Virus record (IMG/VR): IMGVR_UViG_3300033141_004201
Location: 1-31,036 of that record
Strand: one strand, 5' to 3'
DNA: 31,036 bases
Source of the DNA: a virus
Shown: positions 17,181 through 31,036 of the stretch, piece after piece
Position numbering within the stretch: the first letter of the stretch is position 1
How the letters are laid out: every line of letters starts with the position of its first letter
Made by a program: the position numbers and the translations under genes
The notes under the pieces: generated by a model
Database searches by the model: none
The model's input: only the letters and a program-made list of their open reading frames with translations
What the model was told of the DNA's origin: nothing

Positions 17181-17660
17181 CTAAATTAATCCACTAAAAA
17201 CACCAAAAATAAGAAAAATTAAAGATAATATTAAAAATAACCGCCATAAATAATCATATGTATCGGTTGCTTTTTTTCTCTTTTCTTCTAATCTAACAAA
17301 GGAATAAAAAGTAATGCTTTCTTGTAAAGCTTTACTTTCAAAAAACAAACCTTTTTCATATAAACTGATGAAAACGGAAAATAAAGAAAAGGAAAAAAAT
17401 AATATTGACAAATAATTTAAAATAATTATGCTATATATTACTCCTATTGAAGAAAAGAATAATAGACTGATTTGTAAAAATAAAAATTGAAAGAAGGACT
17501 GTTTTCTCAATAAATTAACACTGTTTAAATAATCTTTTGCGTTTATCTTTCGCAATTCCTTTTGCTTTTGTTCTTCTTCTTTAGTTAAAAACCTTGCTTC
17601 CAACTTTTCCTTATCTTCTTTATCAGCTAATTCTTGTAAATTGCTAAAAAGTGTTTTCAT
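17181..17660 (-). CDS. Membrane protein with three predicted spans
   Basis: A 159-residue protein with a charged coiled N-terminus (LQELADKEDKEKLEARFLTK) and hydrophobic segments at about 55-75 (FFQFLFLQISLLFFSS), 78-98 (IILNYLSILFFSFSLFSVFI) and 138-158 (LFLILSLIFLIFGVFSGL). No family is recognised. It shares one base with the end of the clamp gene upstream (TAATG), so it is co-translated with replication genes. It may sit in the inner membrane; a link to replication is only from position. Confidence 0.7.
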   Translation of the reverse strand: MKTLFSNLQELADKEDKEKLEARFLTKEEEQKQKELRKINAKDYLNSVNLLRKQSFFQFLFLQISLLFFSSIGVIYSIIILNYLSILFFSFSLFSVFISLYEKGLFFESKALQESITFYSFVRLEEKRKKATDTYDYLWRLFLILSLIFLIFGVFSGLI

Positions 17661-18700
17661 TATTTCTTCTTTTCCTTTATTACTAAAGCTATAAGATGTC
17701 TATATTTCTTATCTTTCGTATAAAAATATAAACAGTTCTTTTCTTCAATAAAATAGAACATATCACAAAAATCGAGAATTTGCAAAAGATGGACGGCGTT
17801 TGTGGAAAAGTCTATTTCTTCTTTCAATTTATTACATAGTATCGTTTCTTTTATCTCATCTTTTCTATCTCTGTAAGATAAGAACAATTTGTTTTCTTTC
17901 CCTATTACAGATACTATTGGTTCGTTATCGTAACTGGCAGAAGCAAAAGAGCAAATTCTCTTTAATGATTCCTTTGCTTTTTTAATATCTTTCAATTCCA
18001 CACTTACTTTTTTCGTTTCTTTTATATCAAATAGATTTTTCCATTTCGGAAAATCAACACCCACCAAATTACCCATTAATTGTTTTTCGTTTTCATAATT
18101 AAAATACAGAATATTTTTATGCATAATCATTCCAATAGGCAGTTCATTTTCAAGTAAACGGTTCGCTAATTCTTCAGTTATAAGACAATTGAAGACTTTT
18201 TTATCCAGTTTGAAAACACTCACGCGATTCTCGTCCCCGCTTACAAGAAAATTATCATCAAAACTTATACCTTCTAAATCTATTCTACCAATACCCTTTT
18301 TCACGTTAATAAGACAGAACTTAATTCCTTCTAATAAATCAGATGGGACTTCCTCTGTTTCTTTGAATTCTCTTTTTATATTTGGAAAAGAATCAATTGA
18401 ATTCAGAGAAAGCTTTACCTTGCTGCTTTTTGACTTTATCATTAAAACGTTATCTTCCAACAATAAATCAATTTCTTCAGTTTTCAATCCTTCTACCACC
18501 GAACTAAATTTCTTTGCATTTACTATAAAACTTTCTTCAATGCTACAAGGAATGGTTATACCCACACTTTTATTAAAAGCACATAAAGTACCTTTTTCAA
18601 ATTTAAGATTAGTTAATACCTGGTCAAGTTCGGTTTCAGTGCTTGCCATTCCTTTTACTTGTTTTATGTCGGATAACAATTTTTCTCTGTTTACTTTCAT
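17660..18700 (-). CDS. Sliding clamp, DnaN-like (second, divergent clamp)
   Basis: A 346-residue protein that maps to the three domains of the bacterial beta clamp: domain 1 with DNVLMIKSKSSKVKL and FPNI; domain 2 with LEGISFDDNFLVSGDENRVSVFKL (position of 'GV.f...l.v.aTDghRLA'); a linker LVGVDFPKWKNLF (position of 'i.G.yPdy..v'); domain 3 with FASASYDNEPIVSV and ISFS-like ending. Clamps ring the DNA and tether polymerases. It is more divergent than the DnaN at 22311-23429; the usual TDGHRL is GDENRV. The start ATG is preceded by GGAG within the upstream gap. It may serve a different polymerase or stage. Confidence is good for the fold, less so for the role. Confidence 0.82.
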   Translation of the reverse strand: MKVNREKLLSDIKQVKGMASTETELDQVLTNLKFEKGTLCAFNKSVGITIPCSIEESFIVNAKKFSSVVEGLKTEEIDLLLEDNVLMIKSKSSKVKLSLNSIDSFPNIKREFKETEEVPSDLLEGIKFCLINVKKGIGRIDLEGISFDDNFLVSGDENRVSVFKLDKKVFNCLITEELANRLLENELPIGMIMHKNILYFNYENEKQLMGNLVGVDFPKWKNLFDIKETKKVSVELKDIKKAKESLKRICSFASASYDNEPIVSVIGKENKLFLSYRDRKDEIKETILCNKLKEEIDFSTNAVHLLQILDFCDMFYFIEEKNCLYFYTKDKKYRHLIALVIKEKKK

Positions 18701-19744: not shown

Positions 19745-20674
19745 TTATTTACTCGCCTCATATAACATATTTAATAATCCAAATTCACCAGAAGCAAACA
19801 CATCTTCAATAAAACAACTACCTATTTCAATAGCTTTTTTTGTTTTATTTTCTTGCTTTGAATTCAACACAACTGATTTCATATAACCAAGTATAGCACG
19901 CCTTATCCTTTCTGGTTCAGGACTTTTAATCCCTTTATAAATATTCAATAATTGATTTAAAGAACAACTGTCATCGAGCAGCTTCCTGCAAAGTTCAATA
20001 ACATTATATTCAATACCCGTCTGCTCCATTATAATATCAAGAGCTTCTTGCGTCTTTTTTATACCATCAACTTTTTCAAGCATAATTAAAGCCGTTCTCG
20101 GCACGCCTTCACAATTTTCTATTATTAAACTTTTGACTTCTTTTTTTATATTCAAATTGTATTTCTTTATAGTATCATTAATTAAATCTGTTAAATCAGG
20201 ACCCCTTAACCTGTTCAATTCATATATAGCACATCTGTTTTTTATTGTTTTCAATATTTTTTGCGGGTCGGTACTGCAAAGGAAAAAGTAAACGTGATTT
20301 GGCGGCTCTTCTAAATCCTTCAACAAAGCATTCTGGCTACTATTTGATAACATATGACATTCATCTATAATATACGCTTTTGCTTTACTGCCAATGGGCA
20401 TAAATGAAAGGTCTCTTATTATGCTACGCATTGCGTCCACGCCTGTAAAATCAGAAGCGTTAATCTCAACAATAGAACGTTTCTTGCAACCGAATTTTCT
20501 TGCCATAATACGGGCGAGGGTTGTTTTCCCGCAGCCGGAGGCGCCTGTAAAAAGAAAAGCGTGATTCCGTTTTTCTATTGATTTTCCAATTGACATCAAC
20601 AAACTTATTTTTAATGACGAATTTCCATAAAAACTTTTTAAACTTTTCGGTCTGGCTTCTATATGTAAAGGCAT
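19745..20674 (-). CDS. Clamp-loader ATPase subunit (DnaX/RFC-small type)
   Basis: A 309-residue AAA+ protein that opens sliding clamps and loads them at primer junctions. Walker A GASGCGKT (44-51), Walker B YIIDEC (101-106), sensor 1 CSTD (133-136) and, in place of the usual SRC arginine-finger motif, NRC (146-148). A C-terminal helical collar follows. The size matches T4 gp44 or RFC small subunits and is shorter than DnaX. SD AAGGA before the ATG. Only one loader subunit is visible for two clamps; a partner may lie outside the window or be one of the unknown genes nearby. Coupled to the replication cluster. Confidence 0.92.
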   Translation of the reverse strand: MPLHIEARPKSLKSFYGNSSLKISLLMSIGKSIEKRNHAFLFTGASGCGKTTLARIMARKFGCKKRSIVEINASDFTGVDAMRSIIRDLSFMPIGSKAKAYIIDECHMLSNSSQNALLKDLEEPPNHVYFFLCSTDPQKILKTIKNRCAIYELNRLRGPDLTDLINDTIKKYNLNIKKEVKSLIIENCEGVPRTALIMLEKVDGIKKTQEALDIIMEQTGIEYNVIELCRKLLDDSCSLNQLLNIYKGIKSPEPERIRRAILGYMKSVVLNSKQENKTKKAIEIGSCFIEDVFASGEFGLLNMLYEASK

Positions 20675-21482: not shown

Positions 21483-21704
21483 TCAATCCTTCCTTTCTTC
21501 AAATCTTTTTATTAAATCAAGAATAAAACTTTTACCAGAAGTTAATGGTCTTTTTAATATTGCAGACATCCTTATATCTTCCTTCTTGAAGTAAGCATTG
21601 ATATATTCTCTTTGCCATTTCGATAAATAGACATCTGTATTTTCACCATATAACCAATTATAAAACCCTTCTTCACTATTCTCAAACTTTGATTTCTTTG
21701 ACAT
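21483..21704 (-). CDS. Small protein with a Walker A-like loop
   Basis: A 73-residue protein with YLSKWQREYINAYF followed by LKRPLTSGKSFILDLIKRF. The latter looks like the P-loop of phage helicases or terminases ('v.l.+..GKS..l'), with the GKS kept but the first Gly replaced by Arg or Pro. Nothing follows that could be Walker B, so it is either the N-terminal piece of a broken ATPase or a small binding protein. ATG 21704 has GGA 7 bases upstream; it overlaps the Rad50 C-half gene by 23 bases. Confidence 0.55.
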   Translation of the reverse strand: MSKKSKFENSEEGFYNWLYGENTDVYLSKWQREYINAYFKKEDIRMSAILKRPLTSGKSFILDLIKRFEERKD

Positions 21705-22293
21705 AACTAATTCCATTTTTATTTTGCCATACTTTAAAACACTTATCCCCAAATTCTTCTAATTCCGTTTCGTGTGTTATTATTATCATTTGTATTTTAA
21801 ACATATCAGAAACTTTTCTTATCATTTCACCAAAAGAACTTAACAAACCTTTTGATATACCTTTGCCAGGTTCATCAAGTAGAAATACAGAATCAGTTCT
21901 CGGTTCTTTTATGAACCAACTTGCCACTCGCCAAGCAAAAGAAATAATGTTTAATAATCCCTCCCCACACTCGTAATAAGGTGTTAAAATCTTACCACCC
22001 TTGTTAATCAAAGGCTCTGCTTCAGTTTGGTTTCTTTTCATTTTATAATCAAGTTTAAAAGAATACTCTTTCCCATAAACAGAGGCAAGGGCTAATGTTA
22101 TTACATCCTCAAAATAGGCTCCCACTTGCCTTTGAGTTGCTATCATAACATTGTTCACCAAATCCCTTGCCTCCGAATACGTCTTTGCCATCCTCCTGTT
22201 TTCAGTTTTTCGCTGTTTCTCTTTCTTGAGTTCAGACAATAATTGCCTTTTGACAGCTCTTTGCTCTGTATAATGCTTTCTGTATTTGTTCAT
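21682..22293 (-). CDS. Rad50/SbcC C-terminal half (ABC ATPase lobe) as a separate protein
   Basis: A 203-residue protein with the C-terminal motifs of SMC/Rad50 ATPases: a signature-like segment YYECGEGLLNIISFAWRVAS (107-126) in place of LSGGE, Walker B VFLLDE (136-141) with the D-loop after it (GKGIS), and an H-loop IITHE (H174). The first 50 residues are a basic helix, the stub of a coiled coil. It lacks Walker A; that lobe is encoded at 27121-28068. The two would form one composite ATPase with SbcD. The start has no good SD; a later ATG (22191) has AGGAGG but with no spacing, so 22293 is kept. Divergence in the signature is typical of phage forms. Confidence 0.82.
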   Translation of the reverse strand: MNKYRKHYTEQRAVKRQLLSELKKEKQRKTENRRMAKTYSEARDLVNNVMIATQRQVGAYFEDVITLALASVYGKEYSFKLDYKMKRNQTEAEPLINKGGKILTPYYECGEGLLNIISFAWRVASWFIKEPRTDSVFLLDEPGKGISKGLLSSFGEMIRKVSDMFKIQMIIITHETELEEFGDKCFKVWQNKNGISYVKEIKV

Positions 22294-22310
22294 AGCAGGA
22301 AAGTGTTGTA

Positions 22311-23429
22311 TTAATTACTTAATTTTCTTGGCATTACAAGGTTAACTTCATTTTCTTCAACATCATTAGAATCAAAAAATAATTGCTGACTAATATTATC
22401 TTTATATTTCCAAATGACTGTATTTCCTTTAATAGCGTTCAAACCCCTTACTAAATAAGACAAAGCAAAACCTATTGTCAAATCTACCCCCCTATGTTCT
22501 TCACACAAAAAAGAAATTTCAAACCCAATATCTTCCTCAACATCTAAAGCTACAATTGTTATTTCTTTTCCTTTAATAATCAATTTGATTGCTTCTGTTG
22601 TTTTACTCACAAAAGGCTTTGCTTGTTTTAAAGCATTCAACATTTCTTTTCTATCAAAAATAATTTTATTTTTCTGCTCGGTTGGGATAACTTTCCTGAA
22701 ATCAGGATACATCCCCTCAATCGGTCTTGAATATAAAATAATATCATCAGACAATTCAAATTTTATATACCTTTCACCTTTGAAAACCCCTGCAAAATCA
22801 AAGTCAATTCTTGTCAATATTTCAATTATTTTTCTTGATAAAATAATATTAAAATCTTTCATTAATAATTCACAATTGTTTTCAATATCAAGATTTTTTA
22901 TATACCTTAACGCATGTCCATCTGTACCACAACTTGATAATTTTTCTTCTTGTTCAATACAAACGCCTGTCAAACTATTCTTTATTCTCTCATTAGAAAC
23001 GAAAGAAAGTTGCATATATAATTTTAGAAAAATGTCTTTTGACCACAAACCTACTTGTCTGAATTCATCTATTGGTTCTTCTGGATATTCTTCAGTATCC
23101 ATATAAGGAAAAGAAACACTTTTACCATCAAATATTATCTTTACTCTTGGTTGCGTCTCTTCTAATTTAATTTCAATCTCTTTTGGTTTTGTTTTTATAA
23201 TTTTTTCCAATACTTTTAACGGAGCAGTATAATTTCTTTCATCGTCTATTTTCATTACAAGAATTGTTTCTAAATCAGTCGCTAATATATTTCCATTTTT
23301 TACACATACCTGCAAAAGAAATGGTAAAGATGCTTTTTTATCAACTACTTTTTCAGCTATCGAAACAAACTTTTTTAACCTTGCTAAATTTTCATTATTG
23401 GTAGGCGGAAAAAATTTTGTGTTTTTCAT
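22311..23429 (-). CDS. dnaN: Sliding clamp, DnaN (beta subunit)
   Basis: A 372-residue protein, normal DnaN length. Clear family motifs: ILATDLETILVMK in domain 1, TDGHALRYIKNLD in domain 2, RPIEGMYPDFRKVIPTE at the domain 2-3 link, and a VMPRK ending close to the usual MPMRL C-terminus. It forms a dimeric ring that tethers DNA polymerase. Start ATG with AGGAGC SD. It is followed by the Rad50 C-half gene, 17 bp away. This is one of two clamps in the window and the one closer to the host type. A polymerase gene is not in the window. Confidence 0.93.
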   Translation of the reverse strand: MKNTKFFPPTNNENLARLKKFVSIAEKVVDKKASLPFLLQVCVKNGNILATDLETILVMKIDDERNYTAPLKVLEKIIKTKPKEIEIKLEETQPRVKIIFDGKSVSFPYMDTEEYPEEPIDEFRQVGLWSKDIFLKLYMQLSFVSNERIKNSLTGVCIEQEEKLSSCGTDGHALRYIKNLDIENNCELLMKDFNIILSRKIIEILTRIDFDFAGVFKGERYIKFELSDDIILYSRPIEGMYPDFRKVIPTEQKNKIIFDRKEMLNALKQAKPFVSKTTEAIKLIIKGKEITIVALDVEEDIGFEISFLCEEHRGVDLTIGFALSYLVRGLNAIKGNTVIWKYKDNISQQLFFDSNDVEENEVNLVMPRKLSN

Positions 23430-23443
23430 CTTAAAAAGCTCCT

Positions 23444-23779
23444 TTATTTATTTATTCCTAATTTATGAAAAAGAATTATTCTTAAATCCTTTAGATGATC
23501 TTCAATTTTTTTCATTGCTCCTGCCGTACCAGCTCCTTCAGTAGGCCTAATGCCACAATCCCATAAATCATCCATAAGAATTTGGGCATTGTCAGGTGAT
23601 AATTTTAAACTAGGTTCGATTTCTATACCCATATCTTCTTCTGTTATTTTTTTCATTACAATATCTTCGCAAACAGTTTTTTGACCTTTCTCAAAATTGG
23701 TACTAAAGATATATATTTCTACGCTATCAAATAAAATAAAATTTTTCTTTGCCCGAAGACGAATACTTTTGTCATACAT
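23444..23779 (-). CDS. Conserved phage protein of unknown function
   Basis: A 111-residue protein. The segment LSPDNAQILMDDLWDCGIRP, followed by TEGAGTAGAMKKIEDHLKDLR, is a strong and recognisable pattern seen in many tailed-phage proteins of unknown function ('a..LmddLw..GirPteG.GsaGal.a...HL.dmR'). The whole motif is intact. The first 45 residues are less conserved. It overlaps the 46-residue membrane gene by 8 bases and is followed by dnaN. Confidence 0.72.
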   Translation of the reverse strand: MYDKSIRLRAKKNFILFDSVEIYIFSTNFEKGQKTVCEDIVMKKITEEDMGIEIEPSLKLSPDNAQILMDDLWDCGIRPTEGAGTAGAMKKIEDHLKDLRIILFHKLGINK

Positions 23780-23912
23780 AATTATTTTTTCCTATTAATT
23801 TACCTATTTTCTTTTTTAAACTTGTTAACGAACTAATAGCTCCAATAAAATAACCACAAATAAAAATTAAAACTATAATTACAATAATAATTATGGGAAA
23901 GAATATGTCCAT
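23772..23912 (-). CDS. Single-span membrane peptide, 46 residues
   Basis: One hydrophobic segment (residues 3-25, IIIIVIIVLIFICGYFIGA) followed by a Lys-rich tail (LKKKIGKLIGKN): an N-out signal anchor. It overlaps its downstream neighbour by 8 bases, starts 3 bases after the upstream gene, and has GGA 6 bases before the ATG. Gene fit and composition make it likely to be real. Function unknown. Confidence 0.6.
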   Translation of the reverse strand: MDIFFPIIIIVIIVLIFICGYFIGAISSLTSLKKKIGKLIGKNNYV

Positions 23913-23914
23913 TT

Positions 23915-24163
23915 TTATTCCAAAAATTTATCTAATTTAATTTCCAATTCTGATATTTTTTCTTCAAGTTCTTTTCTTTTTTTATTCATTTCACTCATTA
24001 ACTTTTCAGCTTCTTTTAATCCTTTGACGAGGAAATCATCTTTAAGTGTTTTATATGCTGATGATAATTTTCCACCAATTTCAGCATTCGCAAGCTCAAT
24101 CTCTTTCAACTGTTCCTGTGCGTCCTTGACTTTATCTAATATGCTTTTCATATTATCATCCAT
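23915..24163 (-). CDS. Coiled-coil protein, 82 residues
   Basis: Nearly the whole protein is a charged helix with heptad spacing (VKDAQEQLKEIELANAEIG, then AEKLMSEMNKKRKELEEKI). Such small coiled coils self-associate and are often chaperone-like or scaffold-like; the actual role is not known. The ATG 24163 is 1 base after the stop of the remnant frame upstream, with a GAAGAAGAA purine run as SD. A second ATG at 24151 is possible. Confidence 0.65.
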   Translation of the reverse strand: MDDNMKSILDKVKDAQEQLKEIELANAEIGGKLSSAYKTLKDDFLVKGLKEAEKLMSEMNKKRKELEEKISELEIKLDKFLE

Positions 24164-24164
24164 T

Positions 24165-24218
24165 TTATTCTTCTTCTTTTGGTATGCTTATTTTTGGTTC
24201 TGCCTTTCTAATTGTAGA
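24165..24218 (-). pseudogene. 3' tail of a gene interrupted by TnpB element 2
   Basis: The frame reads (MS)TIRKAEPKISIPKEEE then stop: a lysine/glutamate-rich tail with natural codon use but no gene in front of it, only the right end of the TnpB element. It is probably the former C-terminus of the gene now ending at 25381. An ATG at 24216-24218 inside the hairpin opens an 18-codon frame, but this is likely fortuitous. Confidence 0.5.
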
Positions 24219-24285
24219 CATAAATGTCTGTTAATAGATTACCCACCGAAATGGGCATGCTGGATAATTTCTCATCCAGAGCACT
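24200..24285 (-). ncRNA. Predicted omega RNA of element 2 with guide
   Basis: The tnpB 3' end can form three consecutive hairpins on the minus strand: CTGGAT/ATCCAG (24260-24279), CCCA/TGGG (24242-24255) and AGACAT-TT-ATGTCT (24216-24229). The same order of stems at the end of tnpB is typical of omega RNA scaffolds. The guide would start near 24215 and run into ACAATTAGAAAGGCAGAACC, which is the tail of the interrupted phage gene. Ends are approximate. Confidence 0.55.
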
Positions 24286-25377
24286 GGCCGTGCAATATTT
24301 TTTAAAAATGTTAATTGCTGAATTAATATCCCTATCCAGTTTCAAACCACAGTCACAGCTCATTGTTCTTTTATTGAGCGGCATGTTATGGGTTTTTCCG
24401 CATCGAGAACAAGTTTTAGATGTGTAAGCTTCGTTAATCTTAATTAAATTTTTTCCATACAACTTAGATTTATAATTCAGAAATTCTACAAATCTTCCTA
24501 TTCTCCATTCGTTCTGAATAATTCGATTAAACCAAGGCTGTTTTTCCTTTATCATTCCATTTAAATTTAATCTACCAACTACAATAGTTGATTCAGGGCG
24601 AATATTAGTTAACCAATAAGAAGCTTTGTGATAATAGTCGTTAATTCTGTTTAAATAACGAGTTATTTGTCTATGAAAAATTCTATTCTGTTTAAACCAC
24701 CTCCTTGAAAATTTAATGCATTTATCTCGTTTACTTCTTAATTTGTCAATGTGTTTCGTATAATGGGAAAACTTATCAATTCTAATTAATTCATTTCTGG
24801 ATGAATAACCGACAGCTAGAGTCTTGACACCTAAATCAATCCCTATTATGTCATCATTATTTATAATTAATTTTTCATCAACCTCAATAGCAAAACAAAC
24901 AAAATAGTTATTTTTCTGTTTAATTATAGTAACAGTACGATAATCATCAGGTATAGGTTCAGAAGTTCTTACTGTAAAATTGTTATATCCTCTACCTGTA
25001 GGAAGAATAAATCTATAATCATCTATTTTTTTAATATACATTCCGGGGTATTCCTGGGAAATAAATTCTTTTTTTCTCTTATATTTAGGAAAACCTTTAC
25101 CATTATTAAAAAACCGTTTAAATGCCTTATCAAGTCGAAAATACATGGCTGATAAACATTTATTGTAAACTTTGTTATATTCCGGATATTCCTTTTTAAT
25201 AGATGGTAATTGACTTTTCTGTTCATATATAGATAATTGCTTTTTGTTTTTCTCGTAAAAATCTATTTTTTCTTTTAATGCAAAATTATAAATTAATCTA
25301 CATCGTTCAGACGCAAACTCTAAATAATTTTTACATTCCTGATTAATCTTTATTTTTATCTTTTTTACTAAAATCAT
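24208..25377 (-). CDS. tnpB: TnpB of element 2, with apparently relocated catalytic Glu
   Basis: A 389-residue TnpB. RuvC Asp residues are kept: D181 (GIDLGVKT) and D350 (LDRDINSAINI). Where TnpB normally has the catalytic Glu (VVEDLN), this protein has VVGRLN (G268). A Glu appears instead at E316, in KINEAYTSKTC just before the zinc ribbon (C323, C326, C341, C343). I recall TnpB subgroups with this pairing of a lost Glu and a 'NEaYTS' Glu, so activity may be kept. No tnpA is adjacent. The ATG directly follows AAAGG, without normal SD spacing. Element limits are not exact: right end at about 24215, left end close to 25380, beside the truncated gene. Confidence 0.9.
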   Translation of the reverse strand: MILVKKIKIKINQECKNYLEFASERCRLIYNFALKEKIDFYEKNKKQLSIYEQKSQLPSIKKEYPEYNKVYNKCLSAMYFRLDKAFKRFFNNGKGFPKYKRKKEFISQEYPGMYIKKIDDYRFILPTGRGYNNFTVRTSEPIPDDYRTVTIIKQKNNYFVCFAIEVDEKLIINNDDIIGIDLGVKTLAVGYSSRNELIRIDKFSHYTKHIDKLRSKRDKCIKFSRRWFKQNRIFHRQITRYLNRINDYYHKASYWLTNIRPESTIVVGRLNLNGMIKEKQPWFNRIIQNEWRIGRFVEFLNYKSKLYGKNLIKINEAYTSKTCSRCGKTHNMPLNKRTMSCDCGLKLDRDINSAINIFKKYCTASALDEKLSSMPISVGNLLTDIYVYN

Positions 25378-25380
25378 CCT

Positions 25381-25683
25381 TTATCTTTTTTTTATAGGTT
25401 CGTAATCCATACATTCTCTTTTTGGAAACGGTAATTTTTCTTCTTTCCTTGCCATTTCTATATAATCCAACATATATATTTTATATAAATATCTTACTTT
25501 TGATATATAACATCTTTTTAATTGTTCCCTTTCTTCCAACCAATAACGAGCCATCTTTTCCGCCTCACTAACCAATTTTGTTTCCGTGCTTATATAAAAA
25601 GTCATTTGAAACGTAGAAACATATTCAGACACGGGCAAATCGTCAACAATAACCACTTCCCAACAATGCATTTCTTTTATCAT
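25381..25683 (-). CDS. CWEVV-domain protein, single domain, probably truncated at the 3' end
   Basis: A 100-residue protein that matches each half of the 151-residue neighbour: HCWEVV at the start, an STETKLVSEAEKMARYWLEE helix in the middle and YISKVRYLYKIYMLDYIE at the end. The family is not known to me. The stop lies 4 bases before the TnpB ATG, and a plausible former C-terminal tail is on the other side of the element (24165-24218). The ATG overlaps the previous stop by 4 bases. Function unknown. Confidence 0.68.
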   Translation of the reverse strand: MIKEMHCWEVVIVDDLPVSEYVSTFQMTFYISTETKLVSEAEKMARYWLEEREQLKRCYISKVRYLYKIYMLDYIEMARKEEKLPFPKRECMDYEPIKKR

Positions 25684-26135
25684 TTTATCTCCTCCAATAA
25701 ATAGACTTCAAATAGGTATTCCAATGAATATATAAAAAACTTTTCAACTCGCAGAGGTGCATCAGCAAAAAATTCTTTTAAACAAATATTAGCTATCTTT
25801 TCTACTTCTGCATATAATCTATTTTTTGTTGTAACAACACGAACAGTAAAATTAGGAACTGAATATTCCTTTGGTATGGTATTATGAAAAACAACTTTCC
25901 AGCAATGAAAAATATTATCTGTTTTTATTTCATTTTCTTCAATATTAACAGAAAATAAATTTGTCATTCGATTTATAAAACAACGACTAAAAAAAGCATC
26001 ATGCTTCCATTCATTTAAATTTAAAATCTCGCTTTCTACCAAATTAACAGTCTCTTTTTCCGTTATAAAATGTTTAATTCGTTCATCTGTTTCGTTATTA
26101 AAAACAACCTCCCAACAATACATCTCTTTTATCAT
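25680..26135 (-). CDS. CWEVV-domain protein with two tandem domains
   Basis: A 151-residue protein whose halves (residues 1-68 and 74-151) are similar: YCWEVVFNNE then FSRCFINRMTNLFSVNI in the first, and FHCWKVVFHNT then FFIYSLEYLFEVYLLEE in the second. Each has a beta start, a helix and an aromatic end. With the 100-residue neighbour this makes three copies of one domain, so duplication occurred both inside a gene and between genes. The start has GAGGAG about 8 bases upstream. Function unknown; no catalytic motif is seen. Confidence 0.72.
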   Translation of the reverse strand: MIKEMYCWEVVFNNETDERIKHFITEKETVNLVESEILNLNEWKHDAFFSRCFINRMTNLFSVNIEENEIKTDNIFHCWKVVFHNTIPKEYSVPNFTVRVVTTKNRLYAEVEKIANICLKEFFADAPLRVEKFFIYSLEYLFEVYLLEEIK

Positions 26136-26188
26136 TTTATTTCTCCTCTTTTTTATTATATTTATACTTCATTAATATAGTACTTTAA

Positions 26189-27118
26189 TCATTTTATTTC
26201 TTCCTGTGCTTCAGCTATTACGTTTATTATTTTTTTATTTGTATTATTTTTTTCATACCATTTCAGCAAGTTTTCTTGAAAAGAAACTTTTCTTTTATTC
26301 GTTTCTTTTTGGGATAAATATTTCAAAAACTTTTCAAGTTCTTCTTTATCTTTAGTATCAATTCTTTCTATAACCTCTTCAAATACTTCTTCAGACGGTT
26401 TAAAGGGTATCCAAAATAATTCACTATCCATTTCTTCTGTGTCAAATACAATACAAAAAGGTTTTATATCAGCTTCATCAATTTTCTTTCTCACCATTAC
26501 TCCTGTATTGAAAATGAATTTATCCTTTCCATAAACATCAGAAAAGGGTCTGTGATAATCACCACATAAAATCAAATCATAATCCGAATATTTCTGTCCA
26601 AAAACTCTTGGATGAATAAAATCTTGACCTGGATATATAGCTTCAGGGCTAATCATTTTGTGAACAACCAATACTTTAAATCCTTTTTCTTTTTTAGGAA
26701 TAGGTATCTTTTCGCCAAAAGAAGCTCCGTATAAATGAACAACTTTTTTATCCCCCTCTTTAAAATATTTAAAAGGTTTCTTTCCCAATATTCTAACAGC
26801 CCCGGCAGACCTGAATATACCTACACCTGTCTTTTTTATTTTCTTTTTGCTTCTATAATAATAATCATGTTGTCCTAATACAAGATTGATTTTAATTTTA
26901 TATTTAGATAGTAATTTCAAATAAGTAGATAAAACTAAAAAGGATGGATTTTGTGAATCAAAAAAATCACCTGCCTGCAAAAATAAATCACAATTTTCCT
27001 CTTTATATTTTTTCAGACACCATTCAAACTTGAATTTTTGTGTCTCAAAAAAATCATCTTTCCTGTTCTCTGGGTTGTTTTGTCTTAAATGTGTGTCTGA
27101 TAATAAAAATAGTTTCAT
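26189..27118 (-). CDS. sbcD: SbcD/Mre11-like nuclease subunit
   Basis: A 309-residue metallophosphoesterase that trims DNA ends and hairpins together with Rad50/SbcC. Motifs in order: DTHLR (D8, H10), AGDFFD (G50-D51), GQHD (82-85) in place of GNHD, VVHKM, and CGDYHRP in place of GHxH. The Asn to Gln change in motif III is notable, because the Asn helps to bind metal and phosphate; other acidic and His ligands remain. The C-terminal 60 residues are charged helices for Rad50 contact. It begins 2 bp after the Rad50 N-half gene; no SD is seen, so coupled translation is likely. Confidence 0.9.
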   Translation of the reverse strand: MKLFLLSDTHLRQNNPENRKDDFFETQKFKFEWCLKKYKEENCDLFLQAGDFFDSQNPSFLVLSTYLKLLSKYKIKINLVLGQHDYYYRSKKKIKKTGVGIFRSAGAVRILGKKPFKYFKEGDKKVVHLYGASFGEKIPIPKKEKGFKVLVVHKMISPEAIYPGQDFIHPRVFGQKYSDYDLILCGDYHRPFSDVYGKDKFIFNTGVMVRKKIDEADIKPFCIVFDTEEMDSELFWIPFKPSEEVFEEVIERIDTKDKEELEKFLKYLSQKETNKRKVSFQENLLKWYEKNNTNKKIINVIAEAQEEIK

Positions 27119-27120
27119 AG

Positions 27121-28068
27121 TTAATTATTTATTTTTTCTAATAAATTTATCTTTGCTTCCTTTGTCAATTTTCTTTCGCAAGTCGGACAAAAAGTCAAAG
27201 CCTTTCTCAATGATTTTAACGTTGTTTCCAAGTTATTTTTAATTCTTTCAGTTTCTTCTTTTTTCAATTCCAATTTTTTTATGTGTGTTATTACTTTTCC
27301 TAATTTATCTACATCATTATACAGTTTATTATATTTTTCAACAGATATTTTCAAATCGTTAATTATCTTTCCCATTTCTTTCGGTATTTTTATTTCCTTT
27401 TTTTCTTTTTCAAAATGTTTAATATTCTGAATACACACATTTAGTTTATCAATATTATTTTCTAATTCATCTAACTTTTCTTTGTATTTTTCATAGTTTT
27501 TCAAAAGTTTTTTATAATTATCCAAATAATCAAATGATTTTAACTGTTCTTTCAACTCTGATATATGTTCAATATTTTCTTTTTCTTTTCTTTCAGCTTG
27601 TCTCTTTCTTCTATTTAGCAAACTAACAATTTTACCCACGTTCTCTAAATCAGTCAACCTATTTATATATTCTGCTATCTTGCCAGGCGTATCTAAAATT
27701 AAGAAAAAAGATTTTAATTGGTCTTGTATATTTATTTCGTCCAAATCTAAAACATTTTTCACTTCTTCTGGGACATTTCCTTTTAACGCCTTATACAAAT
27801 TACCGTTAATATCATAATCATTTCTTTGCCTATCTTTTATTTTTGTTATTTTTCCTCTATCTGTAATAATTTTCGCTTTAGCTTTTTTCTTTCCCTTTCT
27901 TATTATAGAATCACCAAGAGGTCTATTCTTTATTATCCAACGTATTGCCCTAAATAAAGACGTTTTTCCTTTATCTGATTCTCCTATAATAAAATTTATC
28001 CCAGAACTGAATTGATATTTTGAAATTTTATGTGCTTGAACGTTCTTTAAAATAATTTTATTTATCAT
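27121..28068 (-). CDS. Rad50/SbcC N-terminal half ending in a zinc hook
   Basis: A 315-residue protein: a Walker A GESDKGKT (29-36) in an SMC-type N-terminal lobe, then a coiled coil from about 160 to 285 (KEKENIEHISELKEQLKSF and others), then CPTC (294-297), the zinc hook that joins two Rad50 arms. It stops 18 residues after the hook. In Rad50 the hook is in the middle and a second coil leads back to Walker B; here that half is missing and a separate C-terminal lobe is encoded at 21682-22293. Its ATG overlaps the end of the gene upstream by 11 bases, without SD. Partner of SbcD, next in the operon. Confidence 0.88.
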   Translation of the reverse strand: MINKIILKNVQAHKISKYQFSSGINFIIGESDKGKTSLFRAIRWIIKNRPLGDSIIRKGKKKAKAKIITDRGKITKIKDRQRNDYDINGNLYKALKGNVPEEVKNVLDLDEINIQDQLKSFFLILDTPGKIAEYINRLTDLENVGKIVSLLNRRKRQAERKEKENIEHISELKEQLKSFDYLDNYKKLLKNYEKYKEKLDELENNIDKLNVCIQNIKHFEKEKKEIKIPKEMGKIINDLKISVEKYNKLYNDVDKLGKVITHIKKLELKKEETERIKNNLETTLKSLRKALTFCPTCERKLTKEAKINLLEKINN

Positions 28069-30097: not shown

Positions 30098-31036
30098 TCA
30101 CCAAACCCTTTCCTTCCTTTCAATTGGCGTATAGATTTTTTGCCATATCTTCCAAATCTTTTCCTCAAGCTCTTTTTCAAGATTATTTTCTTCAATATTT
30201 CTTATAGCTTCATCCAAATTTTTATATTTCTTCTTATTATAAATAATACCTTCAGCCCTGCTTTTTGTTATTTTCTTTTTATTTTTTGCTCTAACATAAT
30301 TATTATAAAATTCAAGATTTGTTCCTATGTTATCAATACCATAATCAAATAATAAACGAAATTCCCCACTTTTGAAGGGAGGCGCTATTTTGTTTTTATC
30401 TACATAAAAATAAAATCTTTCACCTATCACTTTGTCATATTCATTTTTTATTTTTTTCCCAGAAGATAATAGAATTCTTACAGTGGCATGAAAATTCAAA
30501 GCCAAACCACCGCTCCAAGCAACTGAACTTTCAAACGCTCCCGCACTAATATTAATTTTCTGATGGTCAACCGCTATAAAAGTAAAATCATTCAAAGCAA
30601 ATCTTTTACCATACTTTCTACAAGCTTCAGACAATTTTTTCGCCCTTATAGTGCCATAACTTTTATCTTCCAATTTGTTTTTCATTTCAGTAATGGAAGG
30701 CAAAGCTGTAATGGAATCAACAGCCATAACAGTTGAGTATTTTCTTTCTTGTTTTGTTATTGTTTTTAATTCCTTTTCAACTTCTGTATCAAAGAGTTCT
30801 TCAAGAGTGTTCGGATTATTGTATTTCCAATTTTTAGTTTTCTTTTTCGGACTCATTGATACATCAAGACCAAATAATTTTCTTGCCCTATCAAAATCAA
30901 GAGTCATTTCTGAATCTTCATAAATAGATTTGCCTTTTAAAACTCTTTGATTATATCCAAGAACAGTTTGACATAATACTGATTTGCAAGCTGAACTTTC
31001 ACCTACTATATGTATAATTCTACCACCAGGAAAGCC
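30098..31036 (-). CDS. RecA/UvsX-like recombinase, C-terminal 312 residues (5' end outside the window)
   Basis: The strand-exchange ATPase of phage recombination. Visible features: a Walker A-like loop GESSACKS at residues 12-19 of the part seen, with Cys where the usual second Gly stands; Walker B VMAVDSITALP; then FIAVDHQKIN in the position of the sensor; GGLALNFHATVRI; and KNKIAPPFKSGEFRLLFDYGIDNIG, which closely matches the RecA family's 'kNK.apPfk.aef.i.yg.GI'. T4 UvsX also has a non-Gly residue here (GPSKSFKS), so activity is likely kept. It lies at the window edge, so its start and N-terminal helix are not seen. It is the first gene of the recombination cluster in the window. Confidence 0.9.
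   Translation of the reverse strand, partial: GFPGGRIIHIVGESSACKSVLCQTVLGYNQRVLKGKSIYEDSEMTLDFDRARKLFGLDVSMSPKKKTKNWKYNNPNTLEELFDTEVEKELKTITKQERKYSTVMAVDSITALPSITEMKNKLEDKSYGTIRAKKLSEACRKYGKRFALNDFTFIAVDHQKINISAGAFESSVAWSGGLALNFHATVRILLSSGKKIKNEYDKVIGERFYFYVDKNKIAPPFKSGEFRLLFDYGIDNIGTNLEFYNNYVRAKNKKKITKSRAEGIIYNKKKYKNLDEAIRNIEENNLEKELEEKIWKIWQKIYTPIERKERVW

Follow-up and report, generated by a model that had tools for sequence, protein, structure and literature searches.

A probable naturally split Rad50/SbcC encoded with an SbcD/Mre11-type nuclease in phages and plasmids

We consider it probable that the virus DNA analysed here encodes a Rad50/SbcC whose split is natural and whose partner is a nuclease of the SbcD/Mre11 type. 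This DNA is the whole IMG/VR virus record IMGVR_UViG_3300033141_004201, which is 31,036 bases in length (hereafter, the window). As judged from sequence comparison, three separate, co-inherited and conserved genes encode the N-terminal lobe with its arm and zinc hook, a small coiled-coil protein, and the C-terminal lobe, and a metallophosphoesterase gene adjoins them. From this co-occurrence and from homology, we infer that the chains assemble with one another. The usual view is that Rad50 and SMC ATPases require one continuous chain, going out to a hook or hinge and returning. In the window, the single polypeptide with an antiparallel two-stranded coil that characterises Rad50/SbcC was not found, and three ORFs stand in its place.

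Results

The split genes and their surroundings in the window

In the ORF table, the genes for the N-half (27121-28068), the nuclease (26189-27118), the small coil (23915-24163) and the C-half (21682-22293) all lie on the minus strand, as do the motifs located within them below. The initial annotation had described a Rad50/SbcC in pieces, with the Walker A lobe, an arm and the CPTC hook in the first of these genes and the lobe with signature, Walker B and H-loop in the last, and our analysis bears this out. It had also placed the halves 5 kb and about ten genes apart; the distance is indeed 4.8 kb, but the same-strand ORFs between them number seven, not ten. Among these seven are two genes that we regard as being outside the machine: a TnpB gene (IS605 OrfB; 24208-25377, minus strand), which is located within the cassette, downstream of the nuclease gene and upstream of the small coil gene, and a beta-clamp-like gene (22311-23429, minus strand; phrog_947, 8.2e-39, with DNA_pol3_beta domains), which is placed after the small coil gene and before that of the C-half.

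The domain matches of the TnpB gene are to OrfB_IS605 and a Cas12f1-like TNB domain. A further beta-clamp-like gene, at 17660-18700, also belongs to phrog_947 and is barely like the first, and a clamp loader is encoded at 19745-20674. Two adjacent small ORFs (25381-25683 and 25680-26135) have in common a repeated MIKEMxCWEVV domain. The large-terminase ORF (463-2988) contains a LAGLIDADG homing-endonuclease domain, which is probably an intein. A RecA/UvsX-like gene (30098-31036) is cut off by the right-hand contig end; its Walker A motif reads GESSACKS, in which the residue preceding Lys is Cys rather than the usual Gly. An Rfam scan of the whole window gave no matches.

The N-half, its terminal hook and its arm

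The N-half, of 315 aa, comprises a Rad50-type Walker A lobe, a single helical arm and a zinc hook near its C terminus. It matches phrog_16465 (1.7e-31) and, above the cut-off, Pfam AAA_23. A profile built from its relatives ranked Rad50 N-half chains first in the PDB (3aux, 1.6e-13; 1ii8_A, 9.7e-13), and the best Foldseek match of its AlphaFold2 model (pLDDT 84, pTM 0.39, the direction of the arm being uncertain) was to Rad50 3auy (E 2.4e-7). By motif reading, Walker A (GESDKGKT, residues 29-36) is located at 27961-27984, and a CxxC zinc hook (CPTC, residues 294-297) at 27178-27189, 21 residues before the chain end. The initial annotation had put the hook at the end of the first chain, and this chain-terminal position recurs in its relatives, in that 60 of 61 complete N-halves from the C-anchored search described below carry a CxxC hook no more than 30 residues from their ends. 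Both hook cysteines are invariant in the set of N-half relatives designated A6, and across the family the hook cysteines and Walker A are near-invariant.

PADLOC gave weak matches to LmuB, GajA and PtuA, most of which fall in the Walker A lobe. They raise the question of whether the cassette acts in defence or anti-defence, like systems with GajA, PtuA or the Lamassu protein LmuB, instead of in replication or repair. We consider this very unlikely: the defence matches are weaker than those to Rad50 and phrog_16465 (the best LmuB match is 1.4e-9), neither a full-length match to GajA, PtuA or LmuB nor a partner effector gene was found, no effector domain was found on the cassette chains, and the neighbourhood in the window is one of replication and recombination genes, with two clamps, a clamp loader, a RuvC-like gene and a RecA-like gene.

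The arms of the N-halves show a tandem period of 47 residues, which was detected in three separate sets (z of 10.8, 6.7 and 8.2 against heptad-preserving shuffles) and is accompanied in each by the 94 harmonic. This period was observed in loci L003, L037, L070, L038, L039, L043 and L071, among others. Among the N-half relatives, the distances from Walker A to the hook cluster near 265, 315 and 428 residues, and the arm seems to change in length in steps of approximately 50 residues. In the AlphaFold2 model, the arm of the window N-half is broken into helices at residues 141-178, 181-225 and 230-290. Because of these breaks and the 47-residue period, the arm may be built of helical units rather than as one plain coiled coil.

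The C-half

The C-half, of 203 aa, matches phrog_15167 (8.8e-27). A profile from its relatives found Rad50 C-half chains first in the PDB (3qkr_B, 3.8e-14; 1ii8_B, 1.7e-13), ahead of SMC proteins and ABC transporters, and its AlphaFold2 model (pLDDT 94.3, pTM 0.77) gave Foldseek matches to Rad50 and SMC heads. These better matches rule out an unrelated ABC protein, which the initial annotation had raised as a possible better model for this chain. The lobe has the three elements of a Rad50/SMC-type C-lobe, although the first is degenerate: a signature-like loop (ECGEG, residues 108-112), in which motif reading places CGEG at the canonical SGGE position (21958-21969); Walker B (FLLDEP, residues 137-142; 21868-21885); and an H-loop with His174. 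Across the C-halves, D140 and E141 of Walker B are invariant (25/25), whereas the signature loop is degenerate, with Ser in only 9 of 25 and xGGG instead of SGGE. Ahead of the lobe, the chain opens with one helix of 72 residues (residues 2-73), modelled with a pLDDT of about 90 or more, which contradicts the earlier claim that the C-half has only a short basic helix. In a phylum search with the set designated A5, nearly all matches were in reading frames of approximately 1,170-1,280 aa, as chromosomal SMC would give, and a genome scan with the pattern designated A9 gave at least one locus.

The nuclease and a coupled change at its metal site

The gene at 26189-27118 encodes a calcineurin-like phosphoesterase of 309 aa (Metallophos, 5e-12; the SbcD-like phrog_100, 3.3e-8; phrog_1649, 1.9e-12). 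As for Rad50/SbcC, a linked Mre11/SbcD-type nuclease gene is thus present in the window and in its relatives. Compared with the SbcD/Mre11 motifs DxH, GDxxD, GNHD and GHxH, the window nuclease conforms in DTH and GDFFD and deviates in the other two: as the initial annotation had read in this SbcD gene adjoining the N-half, GQHD (26864-26875) stands for GNHD and GDYH (26552-26563) for GHxH. The two deviations go together. In two overlapping samples, every nuclease with GQHD has GDxH (14/14 and 34/34), and the combination of GQHD with GHxH was found in none of the cassette nucleases sampled; GNHD pairs with GHxH or, in a minority that forms a third state, with GDxH. On the nuclease tree, the state with Q and D requires three changes, of which at least two are forced by well supported branches, and by this reconstruction it is a state that arose at least twice. 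The recurrent pairing and the repeated origin speak against decay, and the pair of changes is not peculiar to the window. Both positions in Mre11 bind the second metal ion, so the change looks like a coupled exchange of ligands rather than decay.

Recurrence of the cassette

A search anchored on the N-half yielded 40 viral loci, and a search anchored on the C-half yielded 331 relatives, of which 80 were kept, representing 67 non-redundant loci; the two samples share a handful of contigs. Co-occurrence of the halves was the check that the initial annotation had proposed, and both searches recovered the same four-gene cassette. Where the full region was available around the N-anchor, the N-half, nuclease, small coil and C-half are separate ORFs in every complete cassette (in L044, the coil gene is an 87-aa ORF directly before the C-half), and the sole single-chain case among the 40 loci is L045, of 680 aa. 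No fused halves were found among the 67 C-anchored loci; the order N-nuclease-coil-C is kept in 61 of the 64 with enough flank, and a coil gene precedes the C-half in 66 of the 67. One locus, L154, is without a recognised N-half, nuclease or coil gene, yet an 80-aa ORF overlaps the start of its C-half.

Exactly one C-lobe match was present in 20 of 21 records, the exception being a contig that ends 85 bases beyond the nuclease, and the N-half profile found one gene per record in 10 of 10. A second, complete Rad50, which had been named at the outset as evidence against a split, was not seen in these records (21 examined for the C-lobe and 10 with the N profile), although the records may be incomplete. 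The expectation that the ATPase would take at least two chains, with the nuclease in the set, accords with what was found, namely halves on separate ORFs in every complete cassette, no second Rad50, and a nuclease within the cassette.

A frameshift, an assembly error or a pseudogene is ruled out by the recurrence of the split in independent contigs and by strong purifying selection, which acts on all four cassette genes in the pair L010/L040. Because the same gene set is found in dozens of unrelated phages and in some plasmids, the putative split Rad50 is a stable alternative design and a trait of the family, not a broken gene. In Bacillus phage vB_BboS-125, the N-half has 471 aa and ends with a CPLC hook, the small coil has 78 aa, and the C-half has 211 aa. 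The SbcD-like gene of this phage (L003, 7977-8957 of NC_048735.1; 326 aa) is absent from the annotation of the record. Other carriers are Microcystis phage Mvi-JY20, an annotated relative, an uncultured phage of 485 kb, and Firmicute plasmids of Bacillus velezensis, Alkaliphilus, Geobacillus and Paenibacillus polymyxa; in the Geobacillus and Paenibacillus polymyxa plasmids, the nuclease is fused to the N-half.

Might the halves instead be degenerate remnants of independent ATPases, or have unrelated functions, the C-half acting for example as a lone ABC-like regulator, such that no Rad50 is formed? The lack of conservation of the signature Ser would suit such a reading, as would the distance that can separate the halves: in Microbacterium phage Magritte, the C-half (gene 2) lies at 0.3 kb, the N-half (gene 155) at 93.8 kb and a coil-like match at 127.2 kb, and no nuclease was recognised by profile. 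We nevertheless consider it improbable, given the strict co-occurrence of the halves, the invariant DE of Walker B, the near-invariant Walker A and hook cysteines, and the selection acting on the four genes of L010/L040.

The small coiled-coil protein

A family profile of the small coil matched the window at 23915-24163 (82 aa; 8.4e-18), and this match, its position before the C-half and purifying selection mark the protein as a candidate replacement for the returning coil. Against the 3,580 ORFs of the first, N-anchored set, all strong matches of the profile were cassette genes. The dN/dS of the gene is approximately 0.04 in L010/L040 and 0.03 in L035/L037, indicating purifying selection. In nearly every locus, the gene is located where the returning coil would be encoded, that is, between hook and C-lobe; an overlap of 4 bases between its stop and the start of the C-half is frequent among relatives, and in others up to several small genes intervene. 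The earlier statement that the second, returning coil is absent was incomplete, for it overlooked the 72-residue helix of the C-half and this third gene. Most likely, the small coil protein takes the place of the returning coil.

Do the lengths of the chains permit such a role? In the window, the N-half measures 294 residues to the hook, and the coil and C-half together have 285; T4 gp46, of 560 aa, has its hook at 288 and a similar remainder. The window lengths therefore fit a Rad50 of three chains. In the family as a whole, the coil and C-half together remain within 277-340 aa while the distance from Walker A to the hook varies over 263-439 (slope 0.10, Spearman 0.35), and thus these chains could not provide a full return strand in the long-armed members. 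Moreover, comparison with the return arms of SbcC, T4 gp46 and L045 detected no homology for the small coil, its profile found only generic coiled coils in the PDB, and it matched the repeat unit of the N-arm no better than heptad-preserving shuffles did (2/27 in the top 5%).

These observations leave room for a different arrangement, in which the two halves form a composite ATPase, the small coil has an accessory or regulatory role (for example as a loader, an inhibitor or a link to the nuclease), and the single-helix arm either folds back on itself or pairs with the arm of its partner protomer. The failure of coil length to track arm length and the absence of detectable homology to return arms are in its favour, and the 47-residue period and the breaks in the modelled arm suggest that the arm may be self-organised. 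Against it, the coil gene sits at the place of the return coil in nearly every locus, often with the 4-base overlap, and the lengths in short-armed members, the window among them, sum to a Rad50 of the size of T4 gp46. We regard this arrangement as possible but somewhat doubtful. A Rad50 of three chains, in which an independent, conserved protein of approximately 80 residues supplies the return coil and chain ends supply the hook, such that the arm can be dismounted and its length, in 47-residue repeats, is free of the head, is in our judgement about evenly balanced between true and false. If true, it would be a modular kind of Rad50/SMC architecture, for which we found no precedent in the open literature searched.

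Discussion

We propose that the N-half and the C-half would fold into one ABC ATPase head, in which the first helix of the N-arm would have the 72-residue helix of the C-half as its partner. A pair of these heads would hold two ATP molecules between them, with Walker A in the N-half of one head opposite the signature loop in the other head's C-half, while two N-chains would be joined at their arm tips by one zinc ion held by four cysteines. The small coil would most likely run beside the N-arm and form the distal portion of the return strand, three chains thus making up one Rad50. The nuclease would bind at the heads and trim or cut DNA ends, and the whole, by analogy with T4 gp46/gp47, would probably process DNA ends during recombination-dependent replication or repair. 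That a head can consist of two chains is shown by the Rad50 heads in the PDB whose N and C chains are separate (1f2t, 1f2u, 1ii8 and 3qkr). In those crystal heads, as here, the N-lobe and the C-lobe are separate polypeptides; however, they are laboratory constructs without a hook or a coil protein, whereas the split in the viruses is natural and conserved.

The cassette has in common with Rad50/SbcC (E. coli SbcC, T4 gp46) and Mre11/SbcD (T4 gp47) a Walker A lobe, a helical arm, a CxxC hook, a C-lobe with Walker B and H-loop, and a nearby metallophosphoesterase gene. It differs from single-chain Rad50/SbcC in its three chains, its hook at a chain end, its stand-alone coil gene, its xGGG signature and a nuclease that often has GQHD/GDxH. 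As classified here, it would work like Rad50, yet departs from the standard members in not being a single chain. The archaea-specific SMC-related proteins (ASRP/ClsN/Sph; PMC9389158) also have a Rad50-like layout with a zinc hook and a weak profile match, but are single chains. In PHROG, the N-half falls in phrog_16465 and phrog_1499 and the C-half in phrog_15167; the tables file the halves apart (exonuclease/unknown and ATPase/other) and link them neither with one another nor with the small coil gene. We found no description of a split Rad50/SbcC in open PMC full text.

A published account of Mre11-Rad50 fusions from Anaerostipes and from Bacillus phage 0305phi8-36 did not observe one P-loop NTPase segment of SbcC in them (PMC3175470). 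The Geobacillus and Paenibacillus plasmids likewise fuse the nuclease to the N-half, and their C-segment is a separate downstream gene. The unobserved segment of the reported fusions may therefore also be a separate gene, and the split may account for fusions that were reported without one ATPase segment.

If the proposed model is true, the return strand of a Rad50 need not be covalently joined, for in this common family the chain is interrupted twice, first at the hook and then ahead of the C-lobe. Three groups of phage genes, now named 'hypothetical', 'exonuclease' and 'ATPase', would become one annotated machine. The split Rad50 would also provide a dissectable system in which to ask whether signalling from head to hook travels via the outgoing strand alone.
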